64,000 bases of DNA. Origin: a virus. The position numbers and the translations under genes are program-made. The notes under the pieces were generated by a model. It searched no databases. It saw nothing but the letters and a program-made list of their open reading frames with translations, and was not told the DNA's origin. The DNA lies in the IMG/VR virus record IMGVR_UViG_3300042430_002694, positions 1-64,000 of that record; one strand, 5' to 3'. Position 1 is the first letter of the stretch; each line of letters starts with the position of its first letter. This document shows, in pieces, positions 5,759-48,879 of the stretch.

Positions 5759-5760
5759 AA

Positions 5761-6399: not shown

Positions 6400-6401
6400 T
6401 A

Positions 6402-7151
6402 TTATTTTGTAGTTTTTTTATTAGTTATTAAGTTTAGAGCCGACTTGTCTACACCGTCATTTCTATTCGCCCAAAAGAAATCGTCAGTTGATCTAGGTTC
6501 AACATTGAGAGTTATGCGGCCTCGATTGATCTTCCAGTTGAATTCTTCCCATGATTTACAAAAATAATGGTTGATTTGTGCAATACTAGTTGTATTTATT
6601 TGACTCGCATGACCTGTTACTAATTCACCAGTTAACTCGAATATTTCACCGTCGACTGTCAAATCAGGCATGTGAGGATTTGTATACCTAACTACTTTTT
6701 TACAGTCGATGATTGTTTTGAAATGGTCAGAGCAATCGTCTTGGCATTTAATGAATCTCTCCAAGACTGGTCGATCTGAGTAACGAATATGACCGTTTGA
6801 CCCAAAGAATCGCCAATGGATTACTACACCAGCTGAAGTTAAGTAGGTTTGAATGAATTCGTTAATTGATAAATCATTATGAATTACTAAAAACTCATCA
6901 ATATCGAGTGCCATTGCATAGTCAAAGTCGCTAGCAAAATTTTCTAGAAAATTATTATATGCTGGAATTTGCATCCCTTTTCCAGGAAAATAGATGATCT
7001 TAACTGAGTCTGAGGCAAAGTCTCGTAGTTTGTTATTTGCTGAATTATCGTAAATGACAAAGTCAGTAACTCCTAATCTCTTGTGGTAGTCTAGCCATTC
7101 AGCTAAATACCTCTCCTCGTCTAATGCTATTGCAAAAATGGCAAGTTTCAT
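6402..7151 (-). CDS. Glycosyltransferase, GT92/DUF23-like
   Basis: A 249-residue protein. The start MKLAIFAIALDEERYLAEWL followed by a downstream ALDIDEFLVI (D-x-D-E motif near residue 100) and HWRFFGSNGH (near residue 130) is the recognisable pattern of the GT92 (DUF23) family, in which the DIDEF motif binds metal and donor sugar. Two His-containing stretches near residues 190-220 (VTGHAS, INHYFCKSW) also fit the family. It lies in the same tight minus-strand cassette, 3 bases after the large glycosyltransferase. The acceptor is unknown. Confidence 0.7.
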   Translation of the reverse strand: MKLAIFAIALDEERYLAEWLDYHKRLGVTDFVIYDNSANNKLRDFASDSVKIIYFPGKGMQIPAYNNFLENFASDFDYAMALDIDEFLVIHNDLSINEFIQTYLTSAGVVIHWRFFGSNGHIRYSDRPVLERFIKCQDDCSDHFKTIIDCKKVVRYTNPHMPDLTVDGEIFELTGELVTGHASQINTTSIAQINHYFCKSWEEFNWKINRGRITLNVEPRSTDDFFWANRNDGVDKSALNLITNKKTTK

Positions 7152-7154
7152 TTA

Positions 7155-17595: not shown

Positions 17596-17619
17596 AAAAG
17601 GGACTTTATAGTCCCTTTT
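17596..17619. terminator. Bidirectional terminator between convergent units
   Basis: Ten-base stem AAAAGGGACT / AGTCCCTTTT with a four-base loop and A/T tracts on both sides. It closes the plus-strand capsid unit and the long minus-strand operon; the minus gene's stop codon lies inside the hairpin (17606). Confidence 0.85.
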
Positions 17620-18007
17620 TTATTGTTTCAACTCCAGTTAATTCTCCAATTTCAAGATCCCCATCTATTAATTGAGGGATAAACTCTACTGACTGATACG
17701 CAGTATTTAGGAATTTTATAGCATTATTTACGCTACTTGCACTAAGTCCAGAATTAACGTAAATGATTCTATTGTATTTACGGTTTCTAACGTTAATTGC
17801 TTTATCGATTAATTTCTTAATCTCATAATTAATTAGGAACGATTGGATCTTATTTGGCACAAGAATTTCCTGTTCAAATTTCTCCTTGATTATTTTATTT
17901 ACGTTTAGTAAATAATCGCATTTCTGCTTCTTACTAAAGGTTTGAATAAATTGTTTTTGGTCTTTTACGAAAACGATTTCAAGTCTTCTGTCATCTGTAT
18001 CAATCAT
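17606..18007 (-). CDS. Unknown protein, last gene of replication operon
   Basis: A 133-residue protein overlapping the dCMP deaminase gene by 4 bases (ATGA type), so probably translationally coupled. It is rich in Ile, Lys and Asn. A strand pattern YNRIIYVNSGLSASSVNNAI is seen near residue 80, but no catalytic motif. No family is recognised. Its stop lies within the operon terminator. Confidence 0.6.
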   Translation of the reverse strand: MIDTDDRRLEIVFVKDQKQFIQTFSKKQKCDYLLNVNKIIKEKFEQEILVPNKIQSFLINYEIKKLIDKAINVRNRKYNRIIYVNSGLSASSVNNAIKFLNTAYQSVEFIPQLIDGDLEIGELTGVETIKKGL

Positions 18008-18480
18008 ATTGAATCTAGGCTGATTTTTTTAACGTCTACCCCGGCTCTTCTTAAAAAATCAAGTCCAGCAATATCTCGATATTCCTCTAGATAAACAACT
18101 TTTTTTATTCCAGCTTGAAGTATTAATTTACTGCAATCTGTACATGGGGAGTAAGTTATGTATAAGGTCGATCCATCGCAACTTTGAGTAGATTTAGCAA
18201 CTTTAGCTAAAGCATTAGACTCTGCGTGTAGAACGTACCATTTTGTTTTGTATTCTCTAAATGAACCGTCTTCGTTCATTACGGCCTCTTCGCATTCATT
18301 TTCAAATCCAGAAGGAGTACCATTGAATCCATCTGCAATAATCGTGTTATTCTTAACAATTAATGCTCCAACTTTTTTACGAGTTGCATGAGATAATTCT
18401 GCCCAAACTTGGGCCATTTTGATGTAGGCGACATCAACCTTATGTTGCCTCTGTACGGATAGTGAGTTAGTAGTTGACAT
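18004..18480 (-). CDS. dCMP deaminase
   Basis: A 158-residue protein counted from the ATG at 18480; a TTG six codons upstream is also possible but ATG is preferred. Zinc and catalytic residues are clear: HAE (H85, E87) and PCTDC (C113, C116). This is the deoxycytidylate deaminase family, which makes dUMP from dCMP for thymidine synthesis. The gene overlaps the end of the gp42/thymidylate-synthase-like gene by 14 bases and the next gene by 4. In T4 the deaminase and dCMP hydroxymethylase compete for dCMP, so keeping both together fits balancing modified cytosine and thymine. Only one deaminase domain is seen. Confidence 0.9.
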   Translation of the reverse strand: MSTTNSLSVQRQHKVDVAYIKMAQVWAELSHATRKKVGALIVKNNTIIADGFNGTPSGFENECEEAVMNEDGSFREYKTKWYVLHAESNALAKVAKSTQSCDGSTLYITYSPCTDCSKLILQAGIKKVVYLEEYRDIAGLDFLRRAGVDVKKISLDSI

Positions 18481-19357
18481 TTCCTTGAGATTTTTCAAAT
18501 ATCCATTTCAAAAGGTCTTCGCCATTTTGAAAAATTAGGACATCGTCTGTATGTTTATTAATAGAATCAAATAGTATTTCAAAATCTTTACTAGGAGTTC
18601 CGTCTATTTCGATTAAATCAGATACGATAGCTGGTAAAGTTACTGGTGAAAATTCATTTTGTAACATGTAGCCAGCTAGATCGTAGTGTCTATCGTAAAC
18701 ATGATATGAATTAGCGACATGAGTATACGATCCTAATTCCAATTCTGGATAGAATTGCTTAAGATGAGAATGGATTTGCATTTGTAGAGAACAGAAGAAA
18801 GCAACATCAGTTGGTGTACCCCATACTGCATCGTTACTTCTCATGAAAACACTCATGTAAAGTTTATTATTTCGAATATGAAGATTTGCGTACATAGTAC
18901 AAACAAAATCTTTATTTGAAAAATGCTGGTGAACTGGTTTATTGAAGTGCAGAACTGCTTGGCGAGTGTTCGAATCGTTCATTAGGCTTTGAATTGCCCA
19001 TTGATACTGAGTCAAATCATGAGAGTTTGTCTCTTTAAAGATTAGATTACCGTAAGCAGAGTTTGCGGTGCCGTCTGTGTTCTGAATTGTTTCCCAGAAT
19101 TTAGCCCATTTTGAAATAAACGCTACATCATTACGACCCATGTAATACCATAGGAATTCAGCTGCAATGTATTTCATTTGCGAACTTCTAGCCTGATTTA
19201 GGTATAGGCATTGAGTTGGATCTTCGACTTCGAGTGCAACATCTAGTAATTCTTTACTGGTAGTTCCTCTAGCGTTATTCACAAGACCGTTAGCCATTAA
19301 ATACTTAATGGAGTCTTCATAGCATGAAGCGAAAGTCTTTCCTTTAAATGTAATCAT
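18467..19357 (-). CDS. Thymidylate synthase-family enzyme, likely dCMP hydroxymethylase (gp42-like)
   Basis: A 296-residue protein with the ThyA-fold core: nucleophile C153 in DFVCTM, RSND at 173-176, TPTD with D184, and SYHVYDRH near 217. Two points favour a dCMP enzyme over a true thymidylate synthase. First, DFVCT and MRSND resemble T4 gp42 (DFMCT and MRSND as I recall it) and not the P-C-H and RSCD of ThyA. Second, the residue after P-x is Asp where ThyA has Asn (PFN); Asn to Asp at this site is the known switch from dUMP to dCMP specificity. The product could be 5-hydroxymethyl-dCMP or 5-methyl-dCMP. A dUMP hydroxymethylase cannot be excluded. Confidence 0.8.
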   Translation of the reverse strand: MITFKGKTFASCYEDSIKYLMANGLVNNARGTTSKELLDVALEVEDPTQCLYLNQARSSQMKYIAAEFLWYYMGRNDVAFISKWAKFWETIQNTDGTANSAYGNLIFKETNSHDLTQYQWAIQSLMNDSNTRQAVLHFNKPVHQHFSNKDFVCTMYANLHIRNNKLYMSVFMRSNDAVWGTPTDVAFFCSLQMQIHSHLKQFYPELELGSYTHVANSYHVYDRHYDLAGYMLQNEFSPVTLPAIVSDLIEIDGTPSKDFEILFDSINKHTDDVLIFQNGEDLLKWIFEKSQGNVNY

Positions 19358-19380
19358 ATTAATTGTGTTAAACTAGTAAC

Positions 19381-19390
19381 TATAATACTC
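19381..19390 (-). promoter_or_regulatory. TAGTATWAT-type box before gp42-like gene
   Basis: On the minus strand GAGTATTATA ends 23 bases before the ATG at 19357. It resembles boxes before gp32, groEL, the S1 protein and others. It may be an early or middle promoter -10 element. Confidence 0.4.
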
Positions 19391-19410
19391 AAAAAAAGGA
19401 AAAAGGTTAA

Positions 19411-21072
19411 CTATACAATAGCTAAATCTGAAAAATGGTCAGTATTTTCAACCTGGATCTTAGTATCGAAGTATTCTTCAGGTAATGGATCATGCGAGAT
19501 AACAAACACGGTCATATTATACTTCTTTGAGAAAGTTTTTAAGAGGTCAACTACTCTAAAAATAGAGTCTACGTCAAGAGAAGAAAATACTTCGTCTAAG
19601 AATAACACGTTTACTTTATTATGTTTAAGTTTAATAAGTTCAAGTATACAAAGCAGAACGATTAAGTTCATTTTCTTTTGTTCTCCAGCAGATAATGAGT
19701 CTGGTGAAACTTGCATTCCTAAATGAGTAATGATCGGATTGAACTCTAGGTCAAACTCGAACGAAAACTTAAATTCTAATACTTTAGCGGTTTTTAGGAT
19801 CTTCTTATTTAATAGTGGAATAATTTGACTCATTAGCATACGTTTCATTCCGTTATCCGATAAGATCATTTCCATTTCTTGCGAAACTTTTAACTTTTCT
19901 TGCTCAACTTTTAAGGTCTTACTAGAATCATCAATTTCAGACTGTATGTTTTTAATTACTTCAGCTAAATGATGATCAGTTGTTTTAACTGTTTGCGTTT
20001 TTAATCCAGAGAGTTCTCTCTTAAGAGATGTAATATTTGCATCGATTGAATAGTAATCGGCCTTTGCTGTATTTTGAGACTCCTCAATCTTTTTAAGACC
20101 TGTCGCCTGACTTGCAAGCGATTCAGTAATCGATGGAATTAGGGACTCTTGTTGAATCTTCTTTGCCTGTAACTTATCTTTAATTTGGCTGTGTAATTCG
20201 TCAGTTAAGTCAGATAAACAGTGAGGGCATTTATTTTTTGCATAGATATCTAGCTTCTTTTGGATTTCTGAGATATTTAAACGAGTAGAAGACTGGCTAT
20301 CTTGACTAGTTCGGATTGAGGTTCGGATTTCCTCTATTTTAGTATTAAAAGAAGCTGCTTCAGTTCTCTTAGCCTGTTTGTCTATTTCTAATTGAGATAT
20401 TTGAGCAGTAATTTCAGAAATTCGAGTCTCATTTGAAGTTTCAATTTCAACTTTTAGATTTTCAAGCTGAAGAAGAGACGACTCAAGAAGTCTCTGATTA
20501 CTTGAAATAGCCGTTTCATGGGCAGAAACATCCCCTTTAATTTTCTTGGATTCTTCTTTCACGATTTTAGACATGTCATTAACTATATCTAGTCCAAAGA
20601 TCTTATCGATAATTTGACGTTTATCTGCTGGACTTAATTTAACGAAGCTCTTAAAATCATTTACTGATAGACTGATTGTATTTGAGAATACGTTAAATGG
20701 GATTCTGGCTAATTCATCTTCTATGAACTCATCAACTCTGCGTTTATCCGGTAAGTTATATTCAGCGCCGTCTACTGATACTTTTGAAAAGTTTGGTTCA
20801 AGCCCACGTTCAATATCAATTAATTTACCACCATCGGTTAAGAATTTAATTTGAGTATAGGCATTCTTGTTAATACGATTAGGAATCTCCTTGGTTTTTC
20901 GGATTGCCGATTTTCCATAGATAGAAACAGTTAAGGCATCAGAAATTGAAGATTTACCTGAGCCGTTTTTACCTTGAACTAGAACAAGTCGAGGCTCGTC
21001 AGTAAATTTAAACGTCTGTAATTTATTTCCGTATGAACAAATGTTTCGGAATGAGAATTCTTGTATCTTCAT
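19411..21072 (-). CDS. Recombination endonuclease subunit, gp46/SbcC/Rad50-like
   Basis: A 553-residue ATPase of the SMC-like family. It has a Walker A (GKNGSGKS, residues 34-41) near the start, a coiled-coil middle with a zinc hook CPHC (residues 282-285), and a C-terminal ABC signature (LSAGEQKK) plus Walker B (VLFLDEV). With gp47 it resects DNA ends for recombination-dependent replication in the cytoplasm. The coiled coils are short, as in phage members. Its ATG overlaps the stop of the SET-like gene, and gp47 lies just upstream, so all three are expected to be co-translated. Likely T4 gene 46 equivalent. Confidence 0.93.
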   Translation of the reverse strand: MKIQEFSFRNICSYGNKLQTFKFTDEPRLVLVQGKNGSGKSSISDALTVSIYGKSAIRKTKEIPNRINKNAYTQIKFLTDGGKLIDIERGLEPNFSKVSVDGAEYNLPDKRRVDEFIEDELARIPFNVFSNTISLSVNDFKSFVKLSPADKRQIIDKIFGLDIVNDMSKIVKEESKKIKGDVSAHETAISSNQRLLESSLLQLENLKVEIETSNETRISEITAQISQLEIDKQAKRTEAASFNTKIEEIRTSIRTSQDSQSSTRLNISEIQKKLDIYAKNKCPHCLSDLTDELHSQIKDKLQAKKIQQESLIPSITESLASQATGLKKIEESQNTAKADYYSIDANITSLKRELSGLKTQTVKTTDHHLAEVIKNIQSEIDDSSKTLKVEQEKLKVSQEMEMILSDNGMKRMLMSQIIPLLNKKILKTAKVLEFKFSFEFDLEFNPIITHLGMQVSPDSLSAGEQKKMNLIVLLCILELIKLKHNKVNVLFLDEVFSSLDVDSIFRVVDLLKTFSKKYNMTVFVISHDPLPEEYFDTKIQVENTDHFSDLAIV

Positions 21073-21563
21073 TAGTTTGAAAAGTATGTAAGTTCTTGGT
21101 TGGGCATAATGTCTTGTACTGCATAGAATTTATACAGTTTTGAGGTAGAGTCATAGGACCAGTTTATATTGGGAGAATCTGAGCGTCTATAAACTGAGCC
21201 GTATCCTAATAGGATTGCATGCGAATTAATATTCATCATTTTATCTGGATTAACAACATCTAATAAAATTGCTTTGAATTGAGCTTGAGAAATTAAGCCT
21301 TGATCAAGCCTTTCCTGTAGGTCAAGCTCAGCAAGTCGGCTCGCAATCTCTCTCTCCTTTTCGATTCCATCAGGGTTAGGGAATAGTTTATTGGTTAAGA
21401 ATTGATCATTTTTACTTAAAAGAATTTGGGTCCTTTGTGTAACCGGCAACCAGGCACAAACTTCAATAACTGAGTCTCTAAAAATCTGACGATTAGTAAA
21501 AACGCAAAACTCAGATCCTATTTTTTGGATTGATATTGATTCTAAAATATTTGGTCTATTCAT
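21072..21563 (-). CDS. SET-domain-like protein inside the gp46/gp47 operon
   Basis: A 163-residue protein with SET-type sequence: N-terminal KIGSEFCVFTNRQIFRDSVI (like the G-x-G...F-A-T-R-x-I start), then the GYGSVYRRSDSPN core (residues 120-132) and YKFYAVQDIMPNQELTYF (144-161), which matches the A-x-x-D-I-x-x-G-E-E-L-T end. SET proteins bind S-adenosylmethionine and methylate lysine. The N-H-S of the core is R-R-S here, and the last Tyr is shifted, so catalysis is doubtful. It overlaps gp47 by 8 bases and gp46 by one base, a conserved-looking coupling. Its target, perhaps a nuclease subunit or host protein, is unknown. Confidence 0.55.
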   Translation of the reverse strand: MNRPNILESISIQKIGSEFCVFTNRQIFRDSVIEVCAWLPVTQRTQILLSKNDQFLTNKLFPNPDGIEKEREIASRLAELDLQERLDQGLISQAQFKAILLDVVNPDKMMNINSHAILLGYGSVYRRSDSPNINWSYDSTSKLYKFYAVQDIMPNQELTYFSN

Positions 21564-22668
21564 CGCCTCTTTCTTGTTTTACCAGTCCATGTACTTCTAT
21601 AAACTTTCGAGCTAAGTCCGTCTTAAAGGTCTGTGAGTAGTCTCTAGATTTAATGAAACTTTTAAAAATATCAATAACATTAAACTGATCTTCTGGATTA
21701 AAGTCTACTGACGTCTTATCGTCAGCGATATCGTCAACATACGTAAAAAATTCAACCTTTCTATGTTTTGATTTTGAAATTAATTCAAGAAATCTTGTTA
21801 CTGGAAATTTGTTTACGAAATTAACGCTAATCATCACATCAACGAATGAATTTTGAAAATGAGAAATAACTTGATCTGCTGGCATTTCCAATAATTCATA
21901 AATATCAAACTTTTTATAGGTAGGAGATTGAGTATTAAGAACGAATGTTTCAATTAGATTAGAGCCGCTTAGGTCTAATTGATAAAAACCTTTTTGATTA
22001 TCTCTATCGCCTCGATCCATTTGATATGGGGTTCCAGTGTATAGAACATTTTTAAATTCTTGTCTATGATGAATATGACCTGCGTAAACGCGCTTGTATG
22101 AAGTTAACATGTCAACCTCTACTCCGTGCTCAACTTTAGTCCACTTATTAAAACGTAATCCTTTAATATCGGCATGGCATACGATGTATTCACATAGATC
22201 CTGATGATCGGTTATTATTTGATTGATTCTATTAGTGTCTTCTACCCAAGGTAACATTAGGAAATTTTGAGTTCCATTAATCGTTAAGATTTCCGGGTTT
22301 TCAAACACATGAATGTTATCTGCAATATGCGAAATCGCCTTTAGTGAGTGAACCACATTTCGGTCTTTATAGTAGACATCATGGTTTCCAATAATAATGT
22401 AAATACCTCTCTTAAACTTCTCAGACAATTTCTTAAAGATAGTTAAAGCCTCATCGTGAATTCTAACATTAATTGATTCGCGTGAATGGAAAATATCTCC
22501 TTCTAAAAACAGAACATCTCGATCTTCATCGAAATCTTTGTCAACTTCACTAATTAAAAAATCCAGTAAAAAGTCCTTTTGTATTTGGAGCCACTCTACT
22601 GAATTGTTTTTAATTCCTAGGTGTAAATCACCAACTAGTGTTATTTTTCTAATATTGTTTAATTTCAT
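21556..22668 (-). CDS. Recombination endonuclease subunit, gp47/SbcD/Mre11-like
   Basis: A calcineurin-type metallophosphoesterase with D-x-H (VGDLHLG, D14/H16), EGDIFH, GNHD and GHIHH motifs, the full metal-binding set of Mre11-family nucleases. The start is taken as ATG 22668 because the longer frame would overlap the preceding gene and its first 15 residues are unlike the family. The previous stop overlaps the region just before this start. It forms the nuclease half of the gp46/gp47 complex that processes ends for recombination. The C-terminal third is less conserved. Confidence 0.92.
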   Translation of the reverse strand: MKLNNIRKITLVGDLHLGIKNNSVEWLQIQKDFLLDFLISEVDKDFDEDRDVLFLEGDIFHSRESINVRIHDEALTIFKKLSEKFKRGIYIIIGNHDVYYKDRNVVHSLKAISHIADNIHVFENPEILTINGTQNFLMLPWVEDTNRINQIITDHQDLCEYIVCHADIKGLRFNKWTKVEHGVEVDMLTSYKRVYAGHIHHRQEFKNVLYTGTPYQMDRGDRDNQKGFYQLDLSGSNLIETFVLNTQSPTYKKFDIYELLEMPADQVISHFQNSFVDVMISVNFVNKFPVTRFLELISKSKHRKVEFFTYVDDIADDKTSVDFNPEDQFNVIDIFKSFIKSRDYSQTFKTDLARKFIEVHGLVKQERGDE

Positions 22669-22669
22669 C

Positions 22670-23347
22670 TTAAAACATTTTATAGTTCTTACCCATACTA
22701 TCAAGGAATCCATATTTGCTGTTTAGCTCAATAAGAAGAAGTTCCTTATTTTCATAAGTCAACATGTCAAATATTTTTTTGTATTCCATGTTAACGGTAC
22801 TAGATATTGAATCAAGTACATGAATTGGACTAATGAATACGTTTAGGCTTACTCCTTTACTTAAACCTGATAGAATTAAATTAAATAGAAGATTCATCTC
22901 AGGTTTAGTAAATTTCTTCTTTTCAGGTTCATCACCAAGTATCGCTAGAACCTCTGAATTACCTTGGATGAATGAATTTATATCTTTACGGACGATCCCT
23001 AGATCCACATGTTCGGCGTATCGACTGGGATCAGTTAAGTGGTAATCGGCTGAGCTGCTATCTAATTTAATTTCAGAACTTCCTCTTGAAGATCCAGCAT
23101 TATCTTCGTCTTCTTCAGTAAATTCTAATCCTAAATTATAAGTATTATTAAAGATTTTATCAGTCTTCTTTAGGTCTGAGTAAGCAGATCGACGTCTTTC
23201 CAATTCGTCTTCGTCATAGTCATCATCGGATATTCCGTTGTTTAAACGGTCATACTCATCTTCAAGACCTAATTCGAGTTCCTGATCGATATTATTGTCG
23301 TCTTCATGTAAATCTAAGAAATCTTCATCTGTTTGTTTTGGTATCAA
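22670..23347 (-). CDS. Unknown acidic protein between helicase and gp47 genes
   Basis: A 225-residue protein, TTG start at 23347, 16 bases after the helicase stop; there is no in-frame ATG until residue 151. The first ~75 residues are highly acidic (many Asp, Glu, e.g. SDDDYDEDELE). The last ~90 residues look globular and helical. No motif is recognised. By position in the replication block it might help load or regulate the helicase, but this is a guess. Confidence 0.55.
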   Translation of the reverse strand: MIPKQTDEDFLDLHEDDNNIDQELELGLEDEYDRLNNGISDDDYDEDELERRRSAYSDLKKTDKIFNNTYNLGLEFTEEDEDNAGSSRGSSEIKLDSSSADYHLTDPSRYAEHVDLGIVRKDINSFIQGNSEVLAILGDEPEKKKFTKPEMNLLFNLILSGLSKGVSLNVFISPIHVLDSISSTVNMEYKKIFDMLTYENKELLLIELNSKYGFLDSMGKNYKMF

Positions 23348-23363
23348 AATAGTTATGATTTTT

Positions 23364-24902
23364 TTATATTGAATTTAATAAGTCATCGTACTCAGCAGAA
23401 GATTTCCCTGGATTAGCTACTGGCGCTGGATAGTCAGGGCTTATTGCTAAGTCGTATGGAATTAAATTCGGTGGCATTGTTGTTGTGTGAACTGTATTGT
23501 ATTGAGTTCGCATTTGATTTTCCAGAGATTGAGTATCATCATCATCTGAGTAGAACTCGCTAGCTGGATCGTATTCTTCAGTTAGTTTTGCAAATTCATA
23601 ACTCATTCGATACATTTTGAAACTTTCGGTGTATCCACCATCACGGTTTGCAATTAACTTAATCTTCATTCGTTTTTCCATAGGTCCTCTAATCAAACCG
23701 AATAGAGAATCTACTGTATGTACAAGCCCAAATGATTCTGCGATATCTGACATGCTTAAGTCTTGATCGTCTACTGCATCTCTTTTAATTTGAGTTGCTG
23801 TAATAATACACCATTCATTTCGAATAGCAACAGCTCTTAATTCCTCAGAGATTACTTTGATCTTTTCGTAAACGTTTCCTTGCTCTCGCATCGGTCTCAT
23901 TAAGTTAATATAGTCAACTACGACTACTGTAAATTTCTTTCCAGTATTTTGCTGAACTTTTAGGAAATAATTTTCTACATCAATCGCTGAGGCAGTTCCG
24001 GTTGGAAATTCTTTAACTACTAATTCGCCTAGGTGAGAAGATTTGCTTCTAAGATCAGCGATCCGTTGAGTTACTTCTCCGACTTGAGTGTTATCTAGTA
24101 GGGCATCATAATTTTTAAATGGAATATCTAGAATCATTGACCCAAGTCGCTTCATGTATTTACGGTCAGATAACTCAAGAGTTGCAATTCCGACATGACA
24201 TCCGGCAACAAATGCTCGACCTGCAATATTAGAAAGGACCATTGACTTTCCTACTTTTGGACGCCCTTGAAAAACTACTAGCGTTTTAGGATTCCATCCA
24301 CCGCCTAGTGTCTTATCAAAGAATGGGAAACCTGTAGGATTTCCAATTTTAGATAGCTGAACGTGATCAATTGGAGTAAAGAAGTCTAGGCCTGATTCGG
24401 CACTAGTAAATGATACGTTTAATTTTTGATTAAATTTTTCACGAACTTCGTTAGTTATTAGCTCAACATTCTCTGGGTTAATGTCAGTTGTTTTTAAATA
24501 CGAAAGAACATCAATTACTGAACCGTTTAGATTTTTGTAAAAGATGAAGGCTTTTGTGTACTTAAATAAGAAATCGTAATTGTAAGTAGTCAAGTCTACT
24601 TCGAATAGAGCTTTGTATTTAGAATCAGGAATATCTAGATTCGCTAGATTAATAAGTTCACGAAGTTCATTACGAGTTGGGATCTTTGAATATTCGACGA
24701 AAAACTTCTTTGCGAGACGGTACACTCTTTGTAAAGTGTCGTCGTTAAAGTAGTGAGCTTTGATTAATGGAATAACCTCCCTCTTGTCCATTGAATCGTA
24801 ATTCTTAGGCTTAATGATAATATCATTATCGTCTTCAGTTAGGACAAAATTAAAGATTATTTTTTCGAGAAGCTCAATGTTCTCTTTGAAGTCTATCATC
24901 AT
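23364..24902 (-). CDS. Replicative DNA helicase (gp41/DnaB-like)
   Basis: A 512-residue protein. The N-terminal 170 residues are helical; then RecA-like core motifs are seen: Walker A GRPKVGKS (213-220), a Glu-containing ATLELSDRK, and VVVDYINLMRP as the B-motif, followed by ITATQIKRD (motif H3/ Q-finger). This is the F4 hexameric helicase family. It is expected to unwind the phage DNA ahead of the polymerase. No separate primase gene was recognised in this window. The gene follows the 113-residue unknown by 5 bases. The C-terminus is low-complexity. Confidence 0.9.
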   Translation of the reverse strand: MMIDFKENIELLEKIIFNFVLTEDDNDIIIKPKNYDSMDKREVIPLIKAHYFNDDTLQRVYRLAKKFFVEYSKIPTRNELRELINLANLDIPDSKYKALFEVDLTTYNYDFLFKYTKAFIFYKNLNGSVIDVLSYLKTTDINPENVELITNEVREKFNQKLNVSFTSAESGLDFFTPIDHVQLSKIGNPTGFPFFDKTLGGGWNPKTLVVFQGRPKVGKSMVLSNIAGRAFVAGCHVGIATLELSDRKYMKRLGSMILDIPFKNYDALLDNTQVGEVTQRIADLRSKSSHLGELVVKEFPTGTASAIDVENYFLKVQQNTGKKFTVVVVDYINLMRPMREQGNVYEKIKVISEELRAVAIRNEWCIITATQIKRDAVDDQDLSMSDIAESFGLVHTVDSLFGLIRGPMEKRMKIKLIANRDGGYTESFKMYRMSYEFAKLTEEYDPASEFYSDDDDTQSLENQMRTQYNTVHTTTMPPNLIPYDLAISPDYPAPVANPGKSSAEYDDLLNSI

Positions 24903-24907
24903 ATTTT

Positions 24908-25249
24908 TTAATTGGCTATTGTGTAATATTTTAAAAATTCAGATTCATTGATTGTAATGAATTCTCCTTTTTTTATAAGTATATCATCTTCTATCAAAGT
25001 TTTCATGATAAGTTTTATCTTATCTCTAAACTCTTCATCATTCATTTTATCCCCAAATACGTATTTCAACGTTTTAGTAGAGAATTTAATGTCAGTTTGA
25101 TCAAATTCCTTTGATTTTGAAATTGTGACTTTGACTATGTAGGACAGAATATCGAACACAAAGTCCTGCCCAGTTGGATAACTAGGCAGAGCGATGTGAG
25201 ATTCTAGTAAGTATTTAAGTGGGATTGTTTGCTGTAAATTAATCTGCAT
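24908..25249 (-). CDS. Unknown small protein between UvsX and helicase
   Basis: A 113-residue protein overlapping the end of uvsX by 11 bases. The C-terminal 50 residues (EEFRDKIKLIMKTLIEDDIL followed by a short strand-turn and INESEFLKYY) have a helix-turn-strand pattern like a winged-helix domain. No sequence family is recognised. Given its place before the helicase it could be a loader or regulator (T4 uses gp59), but T4 gp59 is about twice as long and no clear similarity is visible. Confidence 0.55.
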   Translation of the reverse strand: MQINLQQTIPLKYLLESHIALPSYPTGQDFVFDILSYIVKVTISKSKEFDQTDIKFSTKTLKYVFGDKMNDEEFRDKIKLIMKTLIEDDILIKKGEFITINESEFLKYYTIAN

Positions 25250-26429
25250 CTTCTGAACTAGTTAAGTCTTCTAATTCATCTATTTCAATCTCGTCTATTC
25301 CGTCTTGTGTTTCTGGGAATTTAAAAGTAGGTTTAATAACTTTCTCATCCAGTTCAGTTAAGACTTCCTTGGTGAATAGTCGATCAGAGAAAAATTCTTT
25401 TACTGGAACGGCATCGCCATTATGTCTAATGATGTAGGTTTTTCCAAGTTTCTTAGGTAGGAAATAAAAAGTCTCACCGTTTAATTGAAACGCTGAACAT
25501 AAGTCAGCCTCATCAGGTTTAAGTTTTGAGAATTCTTTCTCGGTTAACTTATTACCACGACCGACTCCACAATTTTCCCAGTTTACGTATTGTTCCAGTC
25601 CAACAAACTGATTCATACCTTTATGGAAAGAGATATGGAACTCAATATCAATTGGTCTAGCTAAACGATTCTTCTTAGTTTTAGATCTAACGATAATTCC
25701 AGTAGTTGTTTTAGCTTCATCCCTAAGGGTTCCTTTACTTAACATCAAGATAATTGAGGCAGAGAACTCTGGACCTCCACCGCCTGACATACCTTTTGGA
25801 GTATATTGATCCATTGAAGCGTATGTGTGGTTAGTAAAGATAAACGGAACTTTATAATTTGAAAGATCTAACGTTAATGACTTGAATAGGGATCTCATCT
25901 CTTTTGCACGTAATCCCATATCTGCTGCATTTTTACCTGCATCCATATCACGTTGACTTTTATCAGTATCCAACATTCCTACTGAATCTACAAATAGAGC
26001 AAGCTTAAGTCCTGGATTTTCTTTAATTGTTTCAATTAGGTCATGAACGAAGAATTTAACTTCGCTGATAAGGCCCATACGTAAATATTTTAATTTAGTT
26101 AAGTCTACTCCAAATTTAACGTAATCACTTGAATCGATTGCACCTTCGGTGTCAATATAGATTACCATGTAGTCTTTCTTCTGCAACTCACGAACTGCAT
26201 TTAAACATAAGAATGTTTTACCTGAACCTGAGTCTCCAGCAATTCCAATACTACGAGTGTTAGGATAACCTCCAAAAAGGGATCCTGACATTTGAGCATT
26301 TAATAAGTAGTTTCCAGTCGGGATGTACTCTTCGATGTCAGAGAATCCGCGAATCTCAATTTTTGATTTTACTTTCTTTTCGAGCAAGTCGTTAAACTTA
26401 GCGAAAGCGTCCATTGTTGTTTTTGCCAT
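25239..26429 (-). CDS. uvsX: Recombinase UvsX/RecA-like
   Basis: A 396-residue strand-exchange protein. Walker A GDSGSGKT (65-72), an IDTEG box near residue 93, Walker B ALFVDSVG near residue 140, and a SGGGGPEFSAS loop near residue 225 are those of the RecA/UvsX family. It forms filaments on single-stranded DNA and drives recombination-dependent replication and repair. An 11-base inverted repeat lies just upstream. Length is close to T4 UvsX (391). It is the first gene after the nudix-like protein, with a 48-base gap, so may have its own promoter. Confidence 0.93.
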   Translation of the reverse strand: MAKTTMDAFAKFNDLLEKKVKSKIEIRGFSDIEEYIPTGNYLLNAQMSGSLFGGYPNTRSIGIAGDSGSGKTFLCLNAVRELQKKDYMVIYIDTEGAIDSSDYVKFGVDLTKLKYLRMGLISEVKFFVHDLIETIKENPGLKLALFVDSVGMLDTDKSQRDMDAGKNAADMGLRAKEMRSLFKSLTLDLSNYKVPFIFTNHTYASMDQYTPKGMSGGGGPEFSASIILMLSKGTLRDEAKTTTGIIVRSKTKKNRLARPIDIEFHISFHKGMNQFVGLEQYVNWENCGVGRGNKLTEKEFSKLKPDEADLCSAFQLNGETFYFLPKKLGKTYIIRHNGDAVPVKEFFSDRLFTKEVLTELDEKVIKPTFKFPETQDGIDEIEIDELEDLTSSEDAD

Positions 26430-26441
26430 GTTGTAAAAATT

Positions 26442-26473
26442 ATTTTAGTATCTTTTACAAGGGATACTAAAAT
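26442..26473. promoter_or_regulatory. 11-base inverted repeat before uvsX
   Basis: Arms ATTTTAGTATC and GATACTAAAAT with a 10-base spacer, between the nudix-like gene and uvsX. On the minus strand it contains TTTTAGTATC. It could be an attenuator/terminator hairpin, an operator or part of a promoter. The stem is AT-rich and lacks a strong U-tract, so a simple terminator is less likely. Confidence 0.45.
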
Positions 26474-26477
26474 GGGT

Positions 26478-27035
26478 TTAGTTAAAGTATGAAATTAATA
26501 AAAATGATCCAGAAAGGACCGTTGTGTCTGAGTAGTCTCCATTTACTACTTGGTGAAATCCGACTTTCACTATATTAGAATTATCTTTAGTGAAGTGGTC
26601 CTTTGATAGGTTTCGAGTAAAAGAAATGTCGTTCTTTGAAGTTAGGTTAACTCCGTAACAGTGCATCTTTAGCGACATTGGAGAATTCATTGAAATATCT
26701 CCCAAGTAAAAAATACTGTCTTCAGTAAGTCCAACCTCATCGATATTTAAACCAGCTTCCTCAATTAAAGCTCGACATACTGAGTCGTATGGAGTTTTAT
26801 CTAGATCTGGGTTAACTGTGTCAATTACTAATGAATTACCGGTTTGGCCATTTACCATATTCGGAGACTCGAGTAAAAATATTGACTTAATTGACTTAGT
26901 ATCTGGGCTTAATTCAAATGGAATAATGCAGATATAATCTAGATCATCTGATAAGTAATCGGCTGAATGTTGGTCCTTTTTTAAAGTTAACACCTTAAAT
27001 TTTCCGATTTGGGTTCTAGTTTCGTTATTAGTCAT
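26478..27035 (-). CDS. Nudix-like protein (degenerate box)
   Basis: A 185-residue protein. A segment ending CRALIEEAGLNI is similar to the Nudix box (R-E-x-x-E-E-x-G-x), although the leading Gly and first Glu expected in the 23-residue box are not clear. Nudix enzymes hydrolyse nucleoside diphosphates linked to other groups. It overlaps the upstream gene by 8 bases within the replication operon. A role in nucleotide or cofactor clearance is possible, or a regulatory, inactive family member. Confidence 0.5.
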   Translation of the reverse strand: MTNNETRTQIGKFKVLTLKKDQHSADYLSDDLDYICIIPFELSPDTKSIKSIFLLESPNMVNGQTGNSLVIDTVNPDLDKTPYDSVCRALIEEAGLNIDEVGLTEDSIFYLGDISMNSPMSLKMHCYGVNLTSKNDISFTRNLSKDHFTKDNSNIVKVGFHQVVNGDYSDTTVLSGSFLLISYFN

Positions 27036-27672
27036 TTGCGGCTACTCCTTTTTGTTTAGGTGATGCGCTTAAAGTCTTCTTCATAGTTTTCTTAATCGCA
27101 TCAACGGTTATGCTGTTATTTATATAGTTTGACAGTTTAGTCAAAAACTCCTCTTTGTTCTTGGAATTAGTGTACATCATTTTCAATAGACTCTTACTTG
27201 GAAGTTTAATCCTAACTGCTAAGTTTAGGTCAGTATCCTCCAATGAAAACATTCCAAATAGATCGCTTGGATCTACTTGAACTTGTTGACGAAGAGCTGT
27301 TTGATTAACTGGTTCAGCAGGTCTAGCTACTGGTGCAATCTCTTTTACCGTATTAGCAAATTCAGCAGGAATTTCGGGAGCAACTTGAATATCTTCAGTT
27401 AAGGAAGGTATGTAGTTAATTGACTGGATTTCAGCCATTGATAATCTAGGCTGGTCGTCAGTGATCATCATTAAGTCTGATGAAACTGCATCTGTGTCCA
27501 TTTGACTTCCATCAGATAGGACTGCTAGAAATCGACCGTTTCGTCCAGGCAGTACGTCCCTAACGGTTACAATAGTACCAGCTTTTCGTGGATCATTTGT
27601 TTTAATCCATTGAAACTCATTTGATTGAAAGCTACTCTTAATAGCCATCATCGTTTCGATATCGTAATTCAT
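27028..27672 (-). CDS. Unknown protein downstream of the polymerase fragment
   Basis: The start is placed at ATG 27672 (MNYDIETMM), 19 bases after the polymerase stop; a longer frame starts earlier but would overlap the polymerase. The protein is 214 residues. A small beta-rich part (TIVTVRDVLPGRNGRFLAVL) looks SH3-like. A Pro/Ala/Gln-rich linker follows, then a helical C-terminus with Lys-rich end. No polymerase motif is present, so it is not the missing polymerase half. Function is unknown. Confidence 0.55.
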   Translation of the reverse strand: MNYDIETMMAIKSSFQSNEFQWIKTNDPRKAGTIVTVRDVLPGRNGRFLAVLSDGSQMDTDAVSSDLMMITDDQPRLSMAEIQSINYIPSLTEDIQVAPEIPAEFANTVKEIAPVARPAEPVNQTALRQQVQVDPSDLFGMFSLEDTDLNLAVRIKLPSKSLLKMMYTNSKNKEEFLTKLSNYINNSITVDAIKKTMKKTLSASPKQKGVAAND

Positions 27673-27691
27673 AATTATGTTTTTTATTTTT

Positions 27692-29074
27692 TTAAGCCAC
27701 TTTATCACTGGACAATTGTTCTTCTAATTTTTTCATTTCGTCCTTAGTATCAACACGACCATTGTATAGTCTTGTTAAAATAGTTCGAGCAGCTGAATCG
27801 TATTTCTTAGTAAATAACGTGTCGTTCTTGGTTAAGACCTGATCAATCGTAGGTTCTTGACCAGCTTTAATTTTTCCACCGTATGAATCTGGTGAAATAT
27901 TAAATTGGATTTGGATATTGGGATACATTGAGGCAAAGTCAAAACATGAAACGTATTTGTAATATCCAGGTTCAGGCTTAGCGACGTATGCTCCATCGTA
28001 AGTTGCATCTTCTTCTAATTCTCTTCGGTCGTTTGCCATATACAAACCTCTTTCTAAGAATTCACGACACATTAGAGTTTCAGTAATGAATACTGCAGAG
28101 AATACTTTTGATACATCGACCTTTGCAAACTTGGAGATAGCGAAGGCTACATCAAGCAATCCAAGCTTATCTTCAATTAGTTTAACTAGAATTGTATCGA
28201 TAATGTTATACTTTGTAAAGTTCTCAACGTCTTGCTGAGCTTCCATCATTGTTGCATATTCACTATGTAATTTAGTTGTTCCTAATACTAAATTTGCAAT
28301 GTAATCTAACTTGTAATTCTCAACTACTTTGTAAGGTTTAGTATTCATAAACACTTCCATGTAATCCAGAAGTCCTAAGTGAACTGGCATTTTGGCCTTG
28401 CCGATTAGGGTTTTAGAAGGCATGTTTAACATTGGTTCAATTCCTAAATTCTTACAACGATTAATTAAATACAACCAGTCAAATCCAATTACGTTCCAGC
28501 CTGTTAAGAAAGGAATCTTTGGAAGAACTTTGTGAAAGAAAGTTTTCATTAAGTCTTCTTCATGTTCAAAGAATAGGTGCTTAACTACGAACGTTTGCTC
28601 ATGCGCTTTAAAATAATCATTTACTTCGTCTTCTAGTCGAGTAACTACATCAGGTGCAAGATCTCGCATAGTTGACATTACGAAACATACGTTATCTTCA
28701 TTTACGAAAGTAATCATATTAACCGGCATTGCGGCTTTAGCTGGATCTGGGAAATCTTGAGAAATAAGCTGAATCTCAATATCCAGATAGTATTTCTTTG
28801 GGCTATCATCTGAATAAATTGAAGCGAGCTCAGTTTCGGCTAACCTAGTTTGAGTTAACTCTTCAAGCCTAAATCGACTTAACCATTTTCCTTGAACCTT
28901 CTTTAGGAATCTTCCATCCCAATTTCTATGTTCAGTTGGAGTTGGCGTTAGATTCCAGTTGTACAGGTCATGCGGAAGTATTGGTTTCTTCATGAATCCG
29001 ATATTTCCATCTGGTTTATAATATGAGATTAGAAGAGCTGAGTCTTCTGTGTGAAATTCTGTACTTACAATCAT
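27692..29074 (-). CDS. Family B DNA polymerase, N-terminal part only (gp43-like)
   Basis: A 460-residue protein with the 3'-5' exonuclease motifs YLDIEI (D98, E100), NVIGFDWLYL (D199) and YNIID (Y289, D293), and then palm motif A FDFASMYP (378-385, D379). It ends about 75 residues later, before motif B (K-x-x-x-N-S-x-Y-G) and motif C (Y-G-D-T-D-S), both absent from this frame and from every other frame in the window. T4 gp43 is about 898 residues. The stop is followed by a different gene. A second part must be encoded elsewhere, as in other split T4-like polymerases, or the gene is broken. No intein signature is seen at the end. Confidence 0.9.
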   Translation of the reverse strand: MIVSTEFHTEDSALLISYYKPDGNIGFMKKPILPHDLYNWNLTPTPTEHRNWDGRFLKKVQGKWLSRFRLEELTQTRLAETELASIYSDDSPKKYYLDIEIQLISQDFPDPAKAAMPVNMITFVNEDNVCFVMSTMRDLAPDVVTRLEDEVNDYFKAHEQTFVVKHLFFEHEEDLMKTFFHKVLPKIPFLTGWNVIGFDWLYLINRCKNLGIEPMLNMPSKTLIGKAKMPVHLGLLDYMEVFMNTKPYKVVENYKLDYIANLVLGTTKLHSEYATMMEAQQDVENFTKYNIIDTILVKLIEDKLGLLDVAFAISKFAKVDVSKVFSAVFITETLMCREFLERGLYMANDRRELEEDATYDGAYVAKPEPGYYKYVSCFDFASMYPNIQIQFNISPDSYGGKIKAGQEPTIDQVLTKNDTLFTKKYDSAARTILTRLYNGRVDTKDEMKKLEEQLSSDKVA

Positions 29075-29092
29075 ATTGTATATTTTACTAAA

Positions 29093-29572
29093 TTAATAAC
29101 CTCTCTGTTGGCGAGCCTTGTTCTCCTCATTCTTAGACATGTACATATTGAACATTTCCTGAGAAGTCATTCCTACTGATACTGCATAGTTCATAAAGAA
29201 GTGTAGCATATCAATTATTTCAAATTTGCACTCAAGCTGATCAGACTCTGATAAATCTGAGAACTTTTTATCTGAGTAGCCTTCATGTGCGGATTTCCAA
29301 CGCTTCCAAATAGCATTACCTGAACCGTCATTGATTCCACCTAATGCATCGGTTGCTTCGTGGATCTCATCTATCATTGCATGGTTATTCATGTGCCAAA
29401 AGGTCATAAGCTCCCTAAGATTCATGTTGGCAAAGTCATACCCGTAAACATTCTTTTGTGTATCAGCCTGAATGTCCATGATTTGGCCTAATGTGTCTTC
29501 GTTCACTTCTGTTCTGTCTGACCAGTGATCTTTAATTTCTAATTTTGCACACGAGTTGTCTGTATTTGCCAT
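29093..29572 (-). CDS. dCTP/dUTP pyrophosphatase, gp56-like all-alpha NTPase
   Basis: A 159-residue protein and first gene of the operon. It matches the T4 gp56 pattern as I recall it: IMDIQADTQ near residue 30; DEIHEATDALGG and IWKRWKSA in the middle; and ECKFEIIDMLHFFMNYAVSVG with a final SKNEENKARQQRGY. Glu and Asp residues of the two E-x-x-E/D motifs (DEIHE, E-x-x-D in the second) would hold Mg2+. T4 gp56 removes dCTP (and dUTP), keeping unmodified C out of the DNA. With the gp42-like gene it suggests modified cytosine. Confidence 0.8.
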   Translation of the reverse strand: MANTDNSCAKLEIKDHWSDRTEVNEDTLGQIMDIQADTQKNVYGYDFANMNLRELMTFWHMNNHAMIDEIHEATDALGGINDGSGNAIWKRWKSAHEGYSDKKFSDLSESDQLECKFEIIDMLHFFMNYAVSVGMTSQEMFNMYMSKNEENKARQQRGY

Positions 29573-37990: not shown

Positions 37991-40420
37991 TTATGATCCG
38001 CAAGCTTCGCATGCATCTGGGTTATCAAGAGAACATACTATATCTTCCGCACTTGTATTAAGCGCTTCAAATACTGGTGCAATTTGGACAGTTGGAGCAA
38101 CTTTTCCAGTAGCCATATTTACTCCTAGTCCAGCAATTGCCGAACTCGCAGCTTCAGTTCTAAGATAATACATTCCTGTCTTTAATCCGCTTTTCCAAGA
38201 ATGGAAGTGAGCTGATGTTAATTTTGCAGTATTTACGTCTCTAAAGAATAAATTCAGAGATTGTGATTGACAAATAAATTTACCACGATCAGCTGACATG
38301 TCGATGATGGTCTTTTGAGAAATTTCCCAAACTGTTTTATAAACAGCTCTTAATTCCTCTGGAATCTCAACGATATTTTGAACAGAACCTTTTTCCAAGA
38401 TTACTCGATTTCTCATAGAATCTCCCCAAAGTCCTAGTTCAGCTAGATCTCTAACTAGATGTTTATTAACTACAATAAATTCTCCAGCTAAAGTTCGACG
38501 AGTTCCTATATTCGAAGTGAATGCCTCGAATGCTTCATTGTTACCCATGATTTGGGCAGTAGAGGCAGTTGGCATTGGCGCAAGCAATAGAGAATTTCGG
38601 GATCCATGCTTCATAAGTTTTCTACGAAGAGCTACCCAATTCCAACGACCTGATAATTGGTCATCCGTTACTCCCCATAAGTTAAACTGAAATTGTCCTG
38701 AGCTTAATGGAGAACCTTCGTATGAGGCGTATGCCCCATCCTTCTTTGCAAGATCAATTGATGCTTCCATTGCAGCGAAGTAGATTGTTTCAAATATCTC
38801 AGAGTTTAATTTCTTTGAGGCTTCTCCGCCAAATTCAATTCCCATTATTGCAAAAGTATCAGCTAAACCTTGAATACCTATTCCAATTGGGCGGTGTTTC
38901 TCGTTAGATGCTTTAGTTTCTGCAGTAGGGTAGAAGTTTACGTCAATTACTTTATTTAGATTTAGTGTTGTTTGATATGCTACATCATATAGAGCCTCAT
39001 AGTCGTACTCACAATTAGGTTTTCTTAGTTTACCTGTACGCTTTCCGATTGTAATAAATTGATTTACTGGAATAGACGCTAAGTTACAAACAGCCTGTTC
39101 TTCTTTTGAGGTGTACTCTATAATTTCAGTACATAAGTTAGAAGATTTGATTGTTCCTAAATTCTTTTGATTTGATTTACGATTAGCTGAATCTTTGAAA
39201 AGAATATATGGCGTGCCTGTCTCAACTTGTGATTCAAGGATTTTTTGCCATAGGGTTCTAGCCTTCATAGTATGACGACCTTTTCCTTCAGCTTCAAGTC
39301 TTTCGTAATTACTCTCGAATTCCTCTCCGTACATTTCCCAAAGCTCGCAGTCAATTTCAGCTGGACAGAATAGTGTCCAATCGCCATCCTCTTCAACTCT
39401 CTTCATGAAAAGATCTGGTGTCCACATAGCTAAGAAAAGATCTCGAGCTCTACGCTCTTCTTTACCGTGGTTTTTACGTAAATCCAAGAAATCTTCAATA
39501 TCTGCATGCCATGGCTCCAAGTAAATAGCAAAAGAGCCTTTACGTTTTCCTCCGCCTTGATCTACATAACGAGCAGTCTCATTGTAAACCTTTAGCATTG
39601 GAATAATTCCATTTGACGTACCGTTTGTTCCTTTGATATAAGAACCAGTAGCTCTAATATTTGAAACCGATAAGCCGATGCCTCCAGCATTTTGTGAAAT
39701 TGCAGCTACATCAGATAGAGTTTTGTAAATTCCTGAAATTGAATCTTCATGCATAGTTAATAAGAAGCATGAAGATAATTGTGGACGTTTGGTTCCAGCG
39801 TTAAACAGGGTTGGAGTGGCATGAGTCATTTTGTGAGTTGACAGAAGCTCATACGTTTTTAATACGTTTTGAATGTCTGTTCCCCAAATACCTACAGCTA
39901 CCCTCATGTATAAATGTTGAGGAGTTTCAGCCGGCTGGCCGTATGTCTTTAATAAGTAACTACGCTCTAATGTCTTAAATCCAAAGTAGTCAAAGTTAAG
40001 ATCGCGATCATGAATGATTGCTTCGTTTAGCGTATTCTTATTCTTCTGTACAGCAGCATAGGTTTCATCAGAGATAATGCCTGCCACCTTTCCAGTCTTT
40101 GGATCTATGTAATTATATAGGTGGTCAATTGTATCACTAAATGACTTGTGGGTCGTTTTGTGCAATCGGGTAATTGCAATTCTTGCAGCTAAGATTGAGT
40201 AGTCTGGGTGAATATGAGCTAGAGCAGCAGCAGTTTCAGCCGCGAGTAGATCAAGTTGCTGTGTGTTAATTCCATCGTATATTCCAGATACTACTTTAGT
40301 GGCTACTTCAAGTGAGTCAACGTAGTCTGTATCCAATCCGTATGTTTGCTTTTTAATACGGTTTGTTATTTTATCGAGCTTTAGCGTTTCGCTATGCCCA
40401 TCTCTTTTTATTACCTTCAT
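37991..40420 (-). CDS. nrdA: Class Ia ribonucleotide reductase, large subunit (NrdA)
   Basis: An 809-residue protein. The N-terminal ~95 residues are an ATP-cone (VIKRDGHSETLKLDKI); substrate-binding and catalytic motifs follow, including SSCFLL, NAGGIGLSVSN, CNLASIPVNQFI, MPTASTAQIMGNNEAFE and a C-terminal CEACGS with the cysteine pair that exchanges electrons. It reduces ribonucleoside diphosphates to deoxy forms. The sequence style (RDGHSETLKLDKI, FEAFTSNIGTRR) is closer to eukaryotic/Bacteroidetes R1 than to E. coli or T4. It is followed by a terminator and preceded by nrdB (14-base gap). Confidence 0.93.
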   Translation of the reverse strand: MKVIKRDGHSETLKLDKITNRIKKQTYGLDTDYVDSLEVATKVVSGIYDGINTQQLDLLAAETAAALAHIHPDYSILAARIAITRLHKTTHKSFSDTIDHLYNYIDPKTGKVAGIISDETYAAVQKNKNTLNEAIIHDRDLNFDYFGFKTLERSYLLKTYGQPAETPQHLYMRVAVGIWGTDIQNVLKTYELLSTHKMTHATPTLFNAGTKRPQLSSCFLLTMHEDSISGIYKTLSDVAAISQNAGGIGLSVSNIRATGSYIKGTNGTSNGIIPMLKVYNETARYVDQGGGKRKGSFAIYLEPWHADIEDFLDLRKNHGKEERRARDLFLAMWTPDLFMKRVEEDGDWTLFCPAEIDCELWEMYGEEFESNYERLEAEGKGRHTMKARTLWQKILESQVETGTPYILFKDSANRKSNQKNLGTIKSSNLCTEIIEYTSKEEQAVCNLASIPVNQFITIGKRTGKLRKPNCEYDYEALYDVAYQTTLNLNKVIDVNFYPTAETKASNEKHRPIGIGIQGLADTFAIMGIEFGGEASKKLNSEIFETIYFAAMEASIDLAKKDGAYASYEGSPLSSGQFQFNLWGVTDDQLSGRWNWVALRRKLMKHGSRNSLLLAPMPTASTAQIMGNNEAFEAFTSNIGTRRTLAGEFIVVNKHLVRDLAELGLWGDSMRNRVILEKGSVQNIVEIPEELRAVYKTVWEISQKTIIDMSADRGKFICQSQSLNLFFRDVNTAKLTSAHFHSWKSGLKTGMYYLRTEAASSAIAGLGVNMATGKVAPTVQIAPVFEALNTSAEDIVCSLDNPDACEACGS

Positions 40421-47295: not shown

Positions 47296-48879
<1,584 letters not shown>

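Follow-up and report, generated by a model that had tools for sequence, protein, structure and literature searches.

A predicted T4-type cytosine hydroxymethylation module in a giant phage far from T4, and exchange of its gp56-type gene for a dUTPase among relatives

Does a giant phage far from T4 build 5-hydroxymethylcytosine into its DNA by the route that T4 uses? The question is raised by bases 1-64000 (the window) of the 271,160-base IMG/VR virus record IMGVR_UViG_3300042430_002694, where 14 consecutive open reading frames (ORFs) on the minus strand form a single run at 17606-29572, with gaps of at most 53 bases and overlaps of at most 44 bases. An earlier note on this DNA had proposed that a gp42-like enzyme, a gp56-like dCTPase and a dCMP deaminase lie here in one operon, and all three were found inside the run: the gp56-like gene heads it, and the deaminase gene followed by a small gene for a 133-aa protein closes it. 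The same run also holds T4-like replication and recombination genes, namely those for the N-terminal half of a split DNA polymerase, UvsX, gp41, gp47 and gp46. With a probability of about 0.8, the module forms the precursor-making half of a cytosine-replacement system of the T4 type, with most virion cytosine replaced. Below, G000 marks coordinates in the whole record, G0nn the whole records of relatives and Lnnn single related loci.

The hydroxymethylase and its relatives

The product of 18467-19357 is identified by sequence, residue and fold tests as a predicted dCMP 5-hydroxymethylase. It is about 27% identical to T4 gp42 and has the thymidylate synthase (TS) fold with the catalytic cysteine (PF00303; Foldseek on the model; Cys153 aligned). 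A sequence search of the PDB returned MilA (9e-18), the CMP hydroxymethylase of mildiomycin synthesis, and T4 gp42 (1.2e-13), both before the best TS (1.5e-10). An AlphaFold2 model built from 28 sequences had a mean predicted local distance difference test score (pLDDT) of 89.6, and Foldseek placed seven MilA chains at the top of its matches, with the dCMP complex first (E 3.4e-16). Further, the enzyme scored under the cut-off in all six of the NCBIfam TS models that it matched (best 62 bits vs 327).

In the active site of T4 gp42, as described in PMC6400193, cytosine is selected by Asp179, the water that supplies the hydroxyl is activated by Asp145, Val85 stands in place of Trp83, and there is no TS tail. 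The same set is seen in the window enzyme: Asp150 (the Asp145 equivalent), Cys153, Thr154 and Asp184, with isoleucine and no equivalent of tryptophan at E. coli position 83, and with no TS C-terminal tail that aligns. Asp184 had been singled out earlier as replacing the asparagine of TS, which is confirmed, as it aligns with E. coli position 177 (T4 Asp179) and is kept in 52 of 52 distinct related sequences. Of the TS-family features that mark modified-cytosine contigs in section 11 of PMC8670742, an aspartate at 177 and an altered residue at 147 rank highest. The aligned Ser174 and Arg132 are deoxy-type residues, whereas MilA carries Ala176 and Lys133, which are described as giving it its preference for CMP (PMC5175136); a CMP hydroxymethylase of the MilA type was rejected on this ribose-pocket pair.

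A residue panel was assembled by aligning 29 enzymes (the window enzyme, 15 relatives, other phage enzymes, T4 gp42, ThyA and the second TS of this phage) and reading three code positions, namely three before the nucleophilic cysteine, one after it, and E. coli position 177. The code Asp/Thr/Asp was found in 25 of the 29: the window enzyme, the 15 relatives, and nine others (LR756500, Xp15, an Agathobaculum phage, phage G, Effie, ctIqW946, vipetofem, T4 gp42 and the gp42 of Aeromonas phage 25). Two enzymes, that of PaMx11 and Goe9 gp29 (annotated as acting on dUMP), read Asp/Asn/Asn, the dUMP-hydroxymethylase type, and two others, E. coli ThyA and the second TS of this phage, read Leu/His/Asn. 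To our knowledge, most of the panel enzymes besides T4 gp42 and ThyA are annotated only and have not been assayed. Judged from this alignment, the enzymes are told apart at -3 and +1 relative to the cysteine and at E. coli 177. The gp42-like words DFVCT and MRSND, on which the earlier note had drawn, are both present, but the second does not set cytosine enzymes apart, since NRSND occurs in two of the dUMP type, and MRSND was therefore rejected as a diagnostic.

When viral contigs were scanned, 269 stretches matched, and the best 80 make up the set of related loci; these encode 52 distinct hydroxymethylase proteins, one identical to that of the window. All 52 keep the equivalents of Cys146, Thr147 and Asp177 and the word DFVCTM, and a chance match is excluded because DFVCTM and the Asp177 equivalent are kept in every one. 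The deaminase gene and the gene for the 133-aa protein follow the hydroxymethylase gene in 79 of the 80 loci, the exception (L070) ending 74 bases past the match. Among 41 candidate stretches from a scan of GTDB contigs, one was a relative, a 254-kb contig in a metagenome-assembled genome (MAG) named uncultured Bacteroidetes bacterium, and its gene order matches that of the window over the part covered. This suggests a Bacteroidota host for these phages, although mis-binning of the MAG contig is also possible.

A second TS-family gene lies at 141 kb (G000:141052-142218) and matches eight NCBIfam TS models, of which it passes two (327.8 vs 108; 331 vs 325). This is taken as the true TS, and the window hydroxymethylase is therefore not needed for dTMP. 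At 388 aa, compared with 264 for the E. coli enzyme, the true TS contains an inserted segment, and the open frames of its relatives range from 380 to 429 aa. No dihydrofolate reductase (DHFR) was found in a search of this record, which has no bearing on hydroxymethylation because that reaction returns tetrahydrofolate. Sequence and fold together show what kind of enzyme the hydroxymethylase is and to which substrate class it belongs, and they also assign the deaminase, the true TS and the gp56 family of the head gene; we infer that these predicted enzymes are catalytically active.

Table 1. Predicted features of the minus-strand gene run, and one further gene of the window
Feature	Position	Strand	Evidence
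dCMP 5-hydroxymethylase (predicted), T4 gp42-type member of thymidylate synthase fold, 296 aa	18467..19357	-	PF00303 1e-21; Cys153, Asp150, Thr154, Ser174, Arg132, Asp184
dCMP deaminase, T4 Cd-like	18004..18498	-	phrog_174 1.3e-49; T4 Cd 35% over 165 residues, 1.7e-21
gp56-type dCTPase/dUTPase (predicted), all-alpha NTP pyrophosphatase, 159 aa, first gene of run	29093..29572	-	phrog_173 3.9e-17; T4 gp56 39% over 94 residues, 2.6e-20
Last gene of run, 133 aa	17606..18007	-	directly after deaminase in 79/80 related loci
gp46-like recombination nuclease subunit	19411..21072	-	phrog_77 7.6e-78
gp47-like recombination nuclease subunit	21556..22713	-	PF00149; T4 gp47 31%, 3.7e-25
gp41-like replicative helicase	23364..24902	-	PF03796; T4 gp41 1.5e-33
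UvsX-like recombinase	25239..26429	-	PF00154; T4 UvsX 1.5e-19
N-terminal half of split family B DNA polymerase	27692..29074	-	phrog_262 and phrog_2062
Ribonucleotide reductase large subunit, NrdA-like, deoxynucleotide source	37991..40420	-	T4 NrdA 27% over 796 residues, 6e-62

The presence of a dCMP deaminase in the operon, as earlier claimed, is borne out (Table 1). Searches of Pfam, PHROG and PDB sequences gave no match of note for the last gene of the run; the model of its product (pLDDT 86) has a weak likeness to P-loop kinases (best E 4.3e-3, TM about 0.5), and a P-loop was not seen. The family B DNA polymerase consists of two genes far apart, the N-terminal half in the run and a C-terminal half at G000:254052-255677, the latter assigned by visual inspection of its start and from conservation of the gene. 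Two further genes were observed outside the run: one for a histone-deacetylase-like protein (G000:147945-148940; PF00850, 1.2e-15), 66-69% identical in G013 and G021, and one for a large GroEL-like protein recognized by eye (window 47296-48879), 56-73% identical in G021 and G013.

The gene at the head of the run

That a gp56-like dCTPase opens the operon holds at the level of family membership. In a tblastn search, the product of 29093-29572 matched T4-type gp56 proteins at 36-39% identity over 97-100% of the length in the 30 rows listed of 1417 records, the match to Proteus phage PM2 reaching 1e-27. The acidic motif and a C-terminal KNxxNxxRQxxxY are common to it and T4 gp56. Given this whole-length homology and the acidic motifs, the product is placed by sequence in the gp56 dCTPase/dUTPase family. 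As a sign of modified cytosine, gp56 is weaker than had been claimed. One table of PMC2993671 has gp56 in every T4 relative that it lists except Aeh1, 65, KVP40 and nt-1, including phages without gene 42, and gp56 alone was rejected as a diagnostic. The same source mentions that host-like dUTPases may replace gp56 in these four phages, which are also missing from its list of gene 42 carriers, and another of its passages states that many T4 relatives lack both genes 42 and 56 (PMC2993671).

A comparable exchange was found among the relatives of the window. Of 24 whole records, 10 encode gp56 (9 of 23, plus this genome), 12 encode a trimeric dUTPase (PF00692), none encodes both, and two fragments (G019 and G020) encode neither. 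The dUTPase gene lies just upstream of the polymerase half in 11 of its 12 carriers (with one small ORF between in G017), LR756500 being the exception. Direct inspection of the sequence upstream of the polymerase, made for ten records, showed a dUTPase-like ORF in nine and gp56 in one (G012). In G018, gp56 adjoins a divergent sheath-like gene, as it does in this genome, and an 828-aa ORF sits between gp56 and the polymerase. This ORF (L222:605-3091, other strand) has a counterpart in position in G012, where an ORF of 118 aa (L138:2508-2864) was observed; this genome has no extra ORF there. The operon head is therefore an insertion site.

Typing at the level of loci covered the 31 of 81 rows (the 80 loci and the window, some of them near-identical genomes) that reach the head position, and gave 16 rows with gp56, 15 with dUTPase, and none with both. 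On a tree of four other genes, the head-gene label requires five changes, all forced by starred branches. The tree is of a quick kind, with 30 rows of which 24 are different (L019, whose left flank is missing, was excluded) and with long branches for L068 and L069; four changes remain when L069, or both L068 and L069, are removed. A representative dUTPase (L129) passes TIGR00576 (105.3 vs 102.6) but not NF001862 (95.9 vs 103), and its best relatives in a PDB search are dUTPases (1.2e-21). Among 21 records, phrog_173 was matched in none of 12 dUTPase carriers and in eight of eight gp56 carriers; 14 named control genomes also gave no match. A search of ten records for a replacement dCTPase found MazG in two, G022 (a dUTPase carrier) and G020, and PRA-PH in none, so that some dUTPase carriers could have a MazG-type dCTPase.

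Whichever head gene is present, the hydroxymethylase is retained with its active site, so that gp56 by itself does not suffice to indicate complete cytosine replacement. The removal of dCTP appears, from these comparisons, to have been repeatedly uncoupled from dCMP hydroxymethylation, which is the most interesting feature of the module. Mixed cytosine is predicted for the dUTPase carriers unless another dCTPase is present; some relatives, with an enzyme not expected to destroy dCTP, may thus carry partly altered DNA. The exchange of gp56 for a dUTPase is itself already known in T4 relatives, but there outside the gene 42 carriers. Among the papers listed in literature searches, judged by titles and abstract openings, none dealt with such an exchange alongside a retained dCMP hydroxymethylase.

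Proposed pathway and its alternatives

In the proposed pathway, the gp56-type enzyme would cleave dCTP (and dUTP) to dCMP (and dUMP), and the enzyme at 18467-19357 would place a hydroxymethyl group from methylene-tetrahydrofolate on C5 of dCMP. Remaining dCMP would be turned by the deaminase into dUMP for the TS of the phage itself at 141 kb. Host or phage kinases would then raise hydroxymethyl-dCMP to the triphosphate, which the phage polymerase would incorporate in place of most cytosine, and the resulting DNA would be protected against host nucleases. Hydroxymethylcytosine is likely in the virion DNA of this phage; that it is there, how far it replaces cytosine, that kinases supply the triphosphate and that the DNA is protected are all things we infer. 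The earlier suggestion that the phage may carry modified cytosine by means of a T4-like set stands as far as the predicted enzymes are concerned, which residues, fold and homology support, and falls short where it relied on gp56, which is not diagnostic.

Which other T4 functions accompany the module was examined with tblastn of 32 T4 proteins against this genome (E up to 0.05). Twelve matched: gp56, gp42, Cd, gp41, gp61, UvsX, gp32, gp47, gp52, NrdA, gp3 (weakly, E 0.006) and gp4. The 20 without a match in this genome include gp1, alpha-gt, beta-gt, denA, denB, alc, arn and frd. Candidates for the hydroxymethyl-dCMP kinase are a guanylate kinase (G000:131952-132431) and an ORF with a sub-threshold AAA_14 match (G000:260508-261116).

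Several observations weigh against the proposed explanation. One of the two phosphate-binding arginines of T4, Arg124, is Gln133 in the window enzyme and in its 15 panel relatives. T4 gp42 (6l18, E 2.0e-13) ranked 21st in the Foldseek search, behind several TS chains (from 6.3e-14), so that the fold search supports a MilA-like cytosine enzyme for the modelled protein and does not alone place T4 gp42 above TS. Nearly half of the typed rows (15 of 31) keep the hydroxymethylase yet have a plain dUTPase in place of gp56. A gp1-type kinase was not recovered: beyond the negative tblastn result, phrog_139 gave only a weak match (4e-5) that overlaps an AAA_33 ORF and has stops in the matched frame. 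Finally, denB and alc, which follow gene 42 in the T4 relatives described in PMC2993671, and arn had no tblastn match in the genome, although proteins this small could be missed. The lack of gp1, denB and alc matches, the alternation of the head gene, and the occurrence of gp56 in T4 relatives without gene 42 (PMC2993671) speak for an alternative in which hydroxymethyl-dCMP is made but cytosine is replaced only in part, the head gene acting mainly as a dUTPase and surviving dCTP competing at the polymerase. We regard this as improbable for the phage in question, since it has the gp56 form with the acidic motifs intact, and the annotation of the T4 record has that enzyme remove both dCTP and dUTP.

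The product of the enzyme itself could also differ. Section 11 of PMC8670742 reports 5-methyl-dCMP as the product of an E. coli TS carrying aspartate at 177, and Asp184 alone therefore does not fix the product; a dCMP methylase would lead to 5-methylcytosine DNA, as reported for Xanthomonas phage XP12. This is very improbable here, as the enzyme has Asp150 at the Leu143 site of TS, isoleucine for Trp83 and no aligned TS tail, all as described for T4 gp42 (PMC6400193), and DHFR was not found in this record. That the enzyme is a second TS or a dUMP hydroxymethylase has next to no probability, even though it is a PF00303 member and many TS chains match its model, for its residue code is unlike that of both classes, a true TS is encoded elsewhere, and its best solved relatives are cytosine enzymes. 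A TS identity was rejected on the lack of Asn177, His147, Leu143 and the C-terminal tail and on the failed TS model scores, and a dUMP hydroxymethylase of the SPO1 gp29 type on Cys-Thr with Asp in the window enzyme vs Cys-Asn with Asn177 in Goe9 gp29 and PaMx11. Replacement of most cytosine through a predicted gp42-type dCMP hydroxymethylase remains the preferred reading.

Decoration, known systems and meaning

The earlier note had added that the cytosine is possibly further decorated, and this is so far not supported: searches for the T4 glucosyltransferases, a carbamoyltransferase and gp1 found nothing convincing. A search with PF09198 (glucosyltransferase) gave no match, but its control was also silent, and no carbamoyltransferase (PF02543) was found in the 271-kb record. 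Nine glycosyltransferase or sugar-type genes were picked by Pfam or by eye (starts 4922, 6402, 7155, 77208, 95061, 188794, 193749, 229362 and 249121) and considered as decorators, a line that led no further: none is matched in the dUTPase carrier G021 (217 kb, perhaps incomplete), and five are matched in G013. In the window, at 4922-9719, a GT92/GT2-like gene, an RgpF-like gene and two unassigned genes were observed inserted among apparent tail or baseplate genes, with no match in G021.

Genes for an FkbM-type methyltransferase (75.7 bits vs a cut-off of 37.7), a small HhH-GPD protein and a 352-aa protein (124070-125128) stand in a row at G000:122881-125128 (L008:7382-9629). Both the methyltransferase and the 352-aa protein have conserved counterparts in G013 and G021, and no HhH-GPD ORF was seen in the G021 stretch; this conservation says little because it extends to 146 other ORFs of the 316 compared. 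The FkbM-type methyltransferase and the 352-aa protein are conserved candidates for a decorator. The family of the latter (A3) is present in two of 17 records searched (G000 and G012) and also in G013 and G021. Its likeness to glycosyltransferases is by appearance, with a PF13524 match in one of 12 members (0.005), while TM_PBP2_N matches four of the 12 (best 0.0081). An hhalign comparison of the family with the 32 T4 proteins left alpha-gt and beta-gt in the noise, PDB and PHROG searches gave nothing usable, and no phage record matched; a glycosyltransferase character is at this point a lead only, from sequence. A more speculative extension, which we consider doubtful as a whole, is that the clade switches between full and partial replacement through a one-gene switch thrown four or five times, with gp56 sisters carrying nearly all hydroxymethylcytosine and dUTPase sisters a mixture, and that the FkbM-type methyltransferase and 352-aa pair is a new hydroxymethylcytosine decorator.

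Among known systems, genes 42, 56, cd and td of T4 share their enzyme families with the genes predicted here to break down dCTP, to hydroxymethylate and deaminate dCMP and to make dTMP, and the telling hydroxymethylase residues are the same. A T4-like set in a distant phage, as earlier claimed, is accordingly present: hydroxymethylase, gp56-type and deaminase genes in the run and a true TS elsewhere, as in T4. Unlike in T4, the deaminase gene overlaps the hydroxymethylase gene (by 32 bases from the listed TTG start) within a run of replication genes, tblastn gave no match in this genome for gp1, the glucosyltransferases, denA, denB, alc or arn, and gp56 is exchangeable for a dUTPase in the clade while the hydroxymethylase stays. 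The same exchange is given as possible for KVP40, nt-1, Aeh1 and 65, which stand outside the gene 42 carriers listed in that source (PMC2993671), whereas a gp42-type enzyme is kept here in both backgrounds. The uncultured 462-kb phage LR756500.1 has a hydroxymethylase 44% identical and with the same residue code, but no gp56 match, and its two PF00692 matches lie about 100 kb from its hydroxymethylase gene; the record is unannotated. In the MetaGPA modified-cytosine contigs a TS with Asp177 co-occurs with dCMP deaminase, and in Xanthomonas phage Xp15 the gene after a putative TS encodes a putative deaminase. A carbamoyltransferase (5-carbamoyloxymethylcytosine) is carried by Xp15 (gp39, 'Nol-like') and by some of the MetaGPA contigs; none was found here with PF02543. 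MilA, the best fold and sequence match among solved structures, differs in its ribose-type residues.

The module is thus a diverged variant of the T4-type pathway, which it extends to giant phages far from T4. The matched sister phages with gp56 or dUTPase could let full and partial replacement be compared, and could be used to ask whether the removal of dCTP is needed to modify phage DNA. The effects of partial replacement against restriction, Type IV nucleases, CRISPR and newer modified-base defences could be asked in the same phages.

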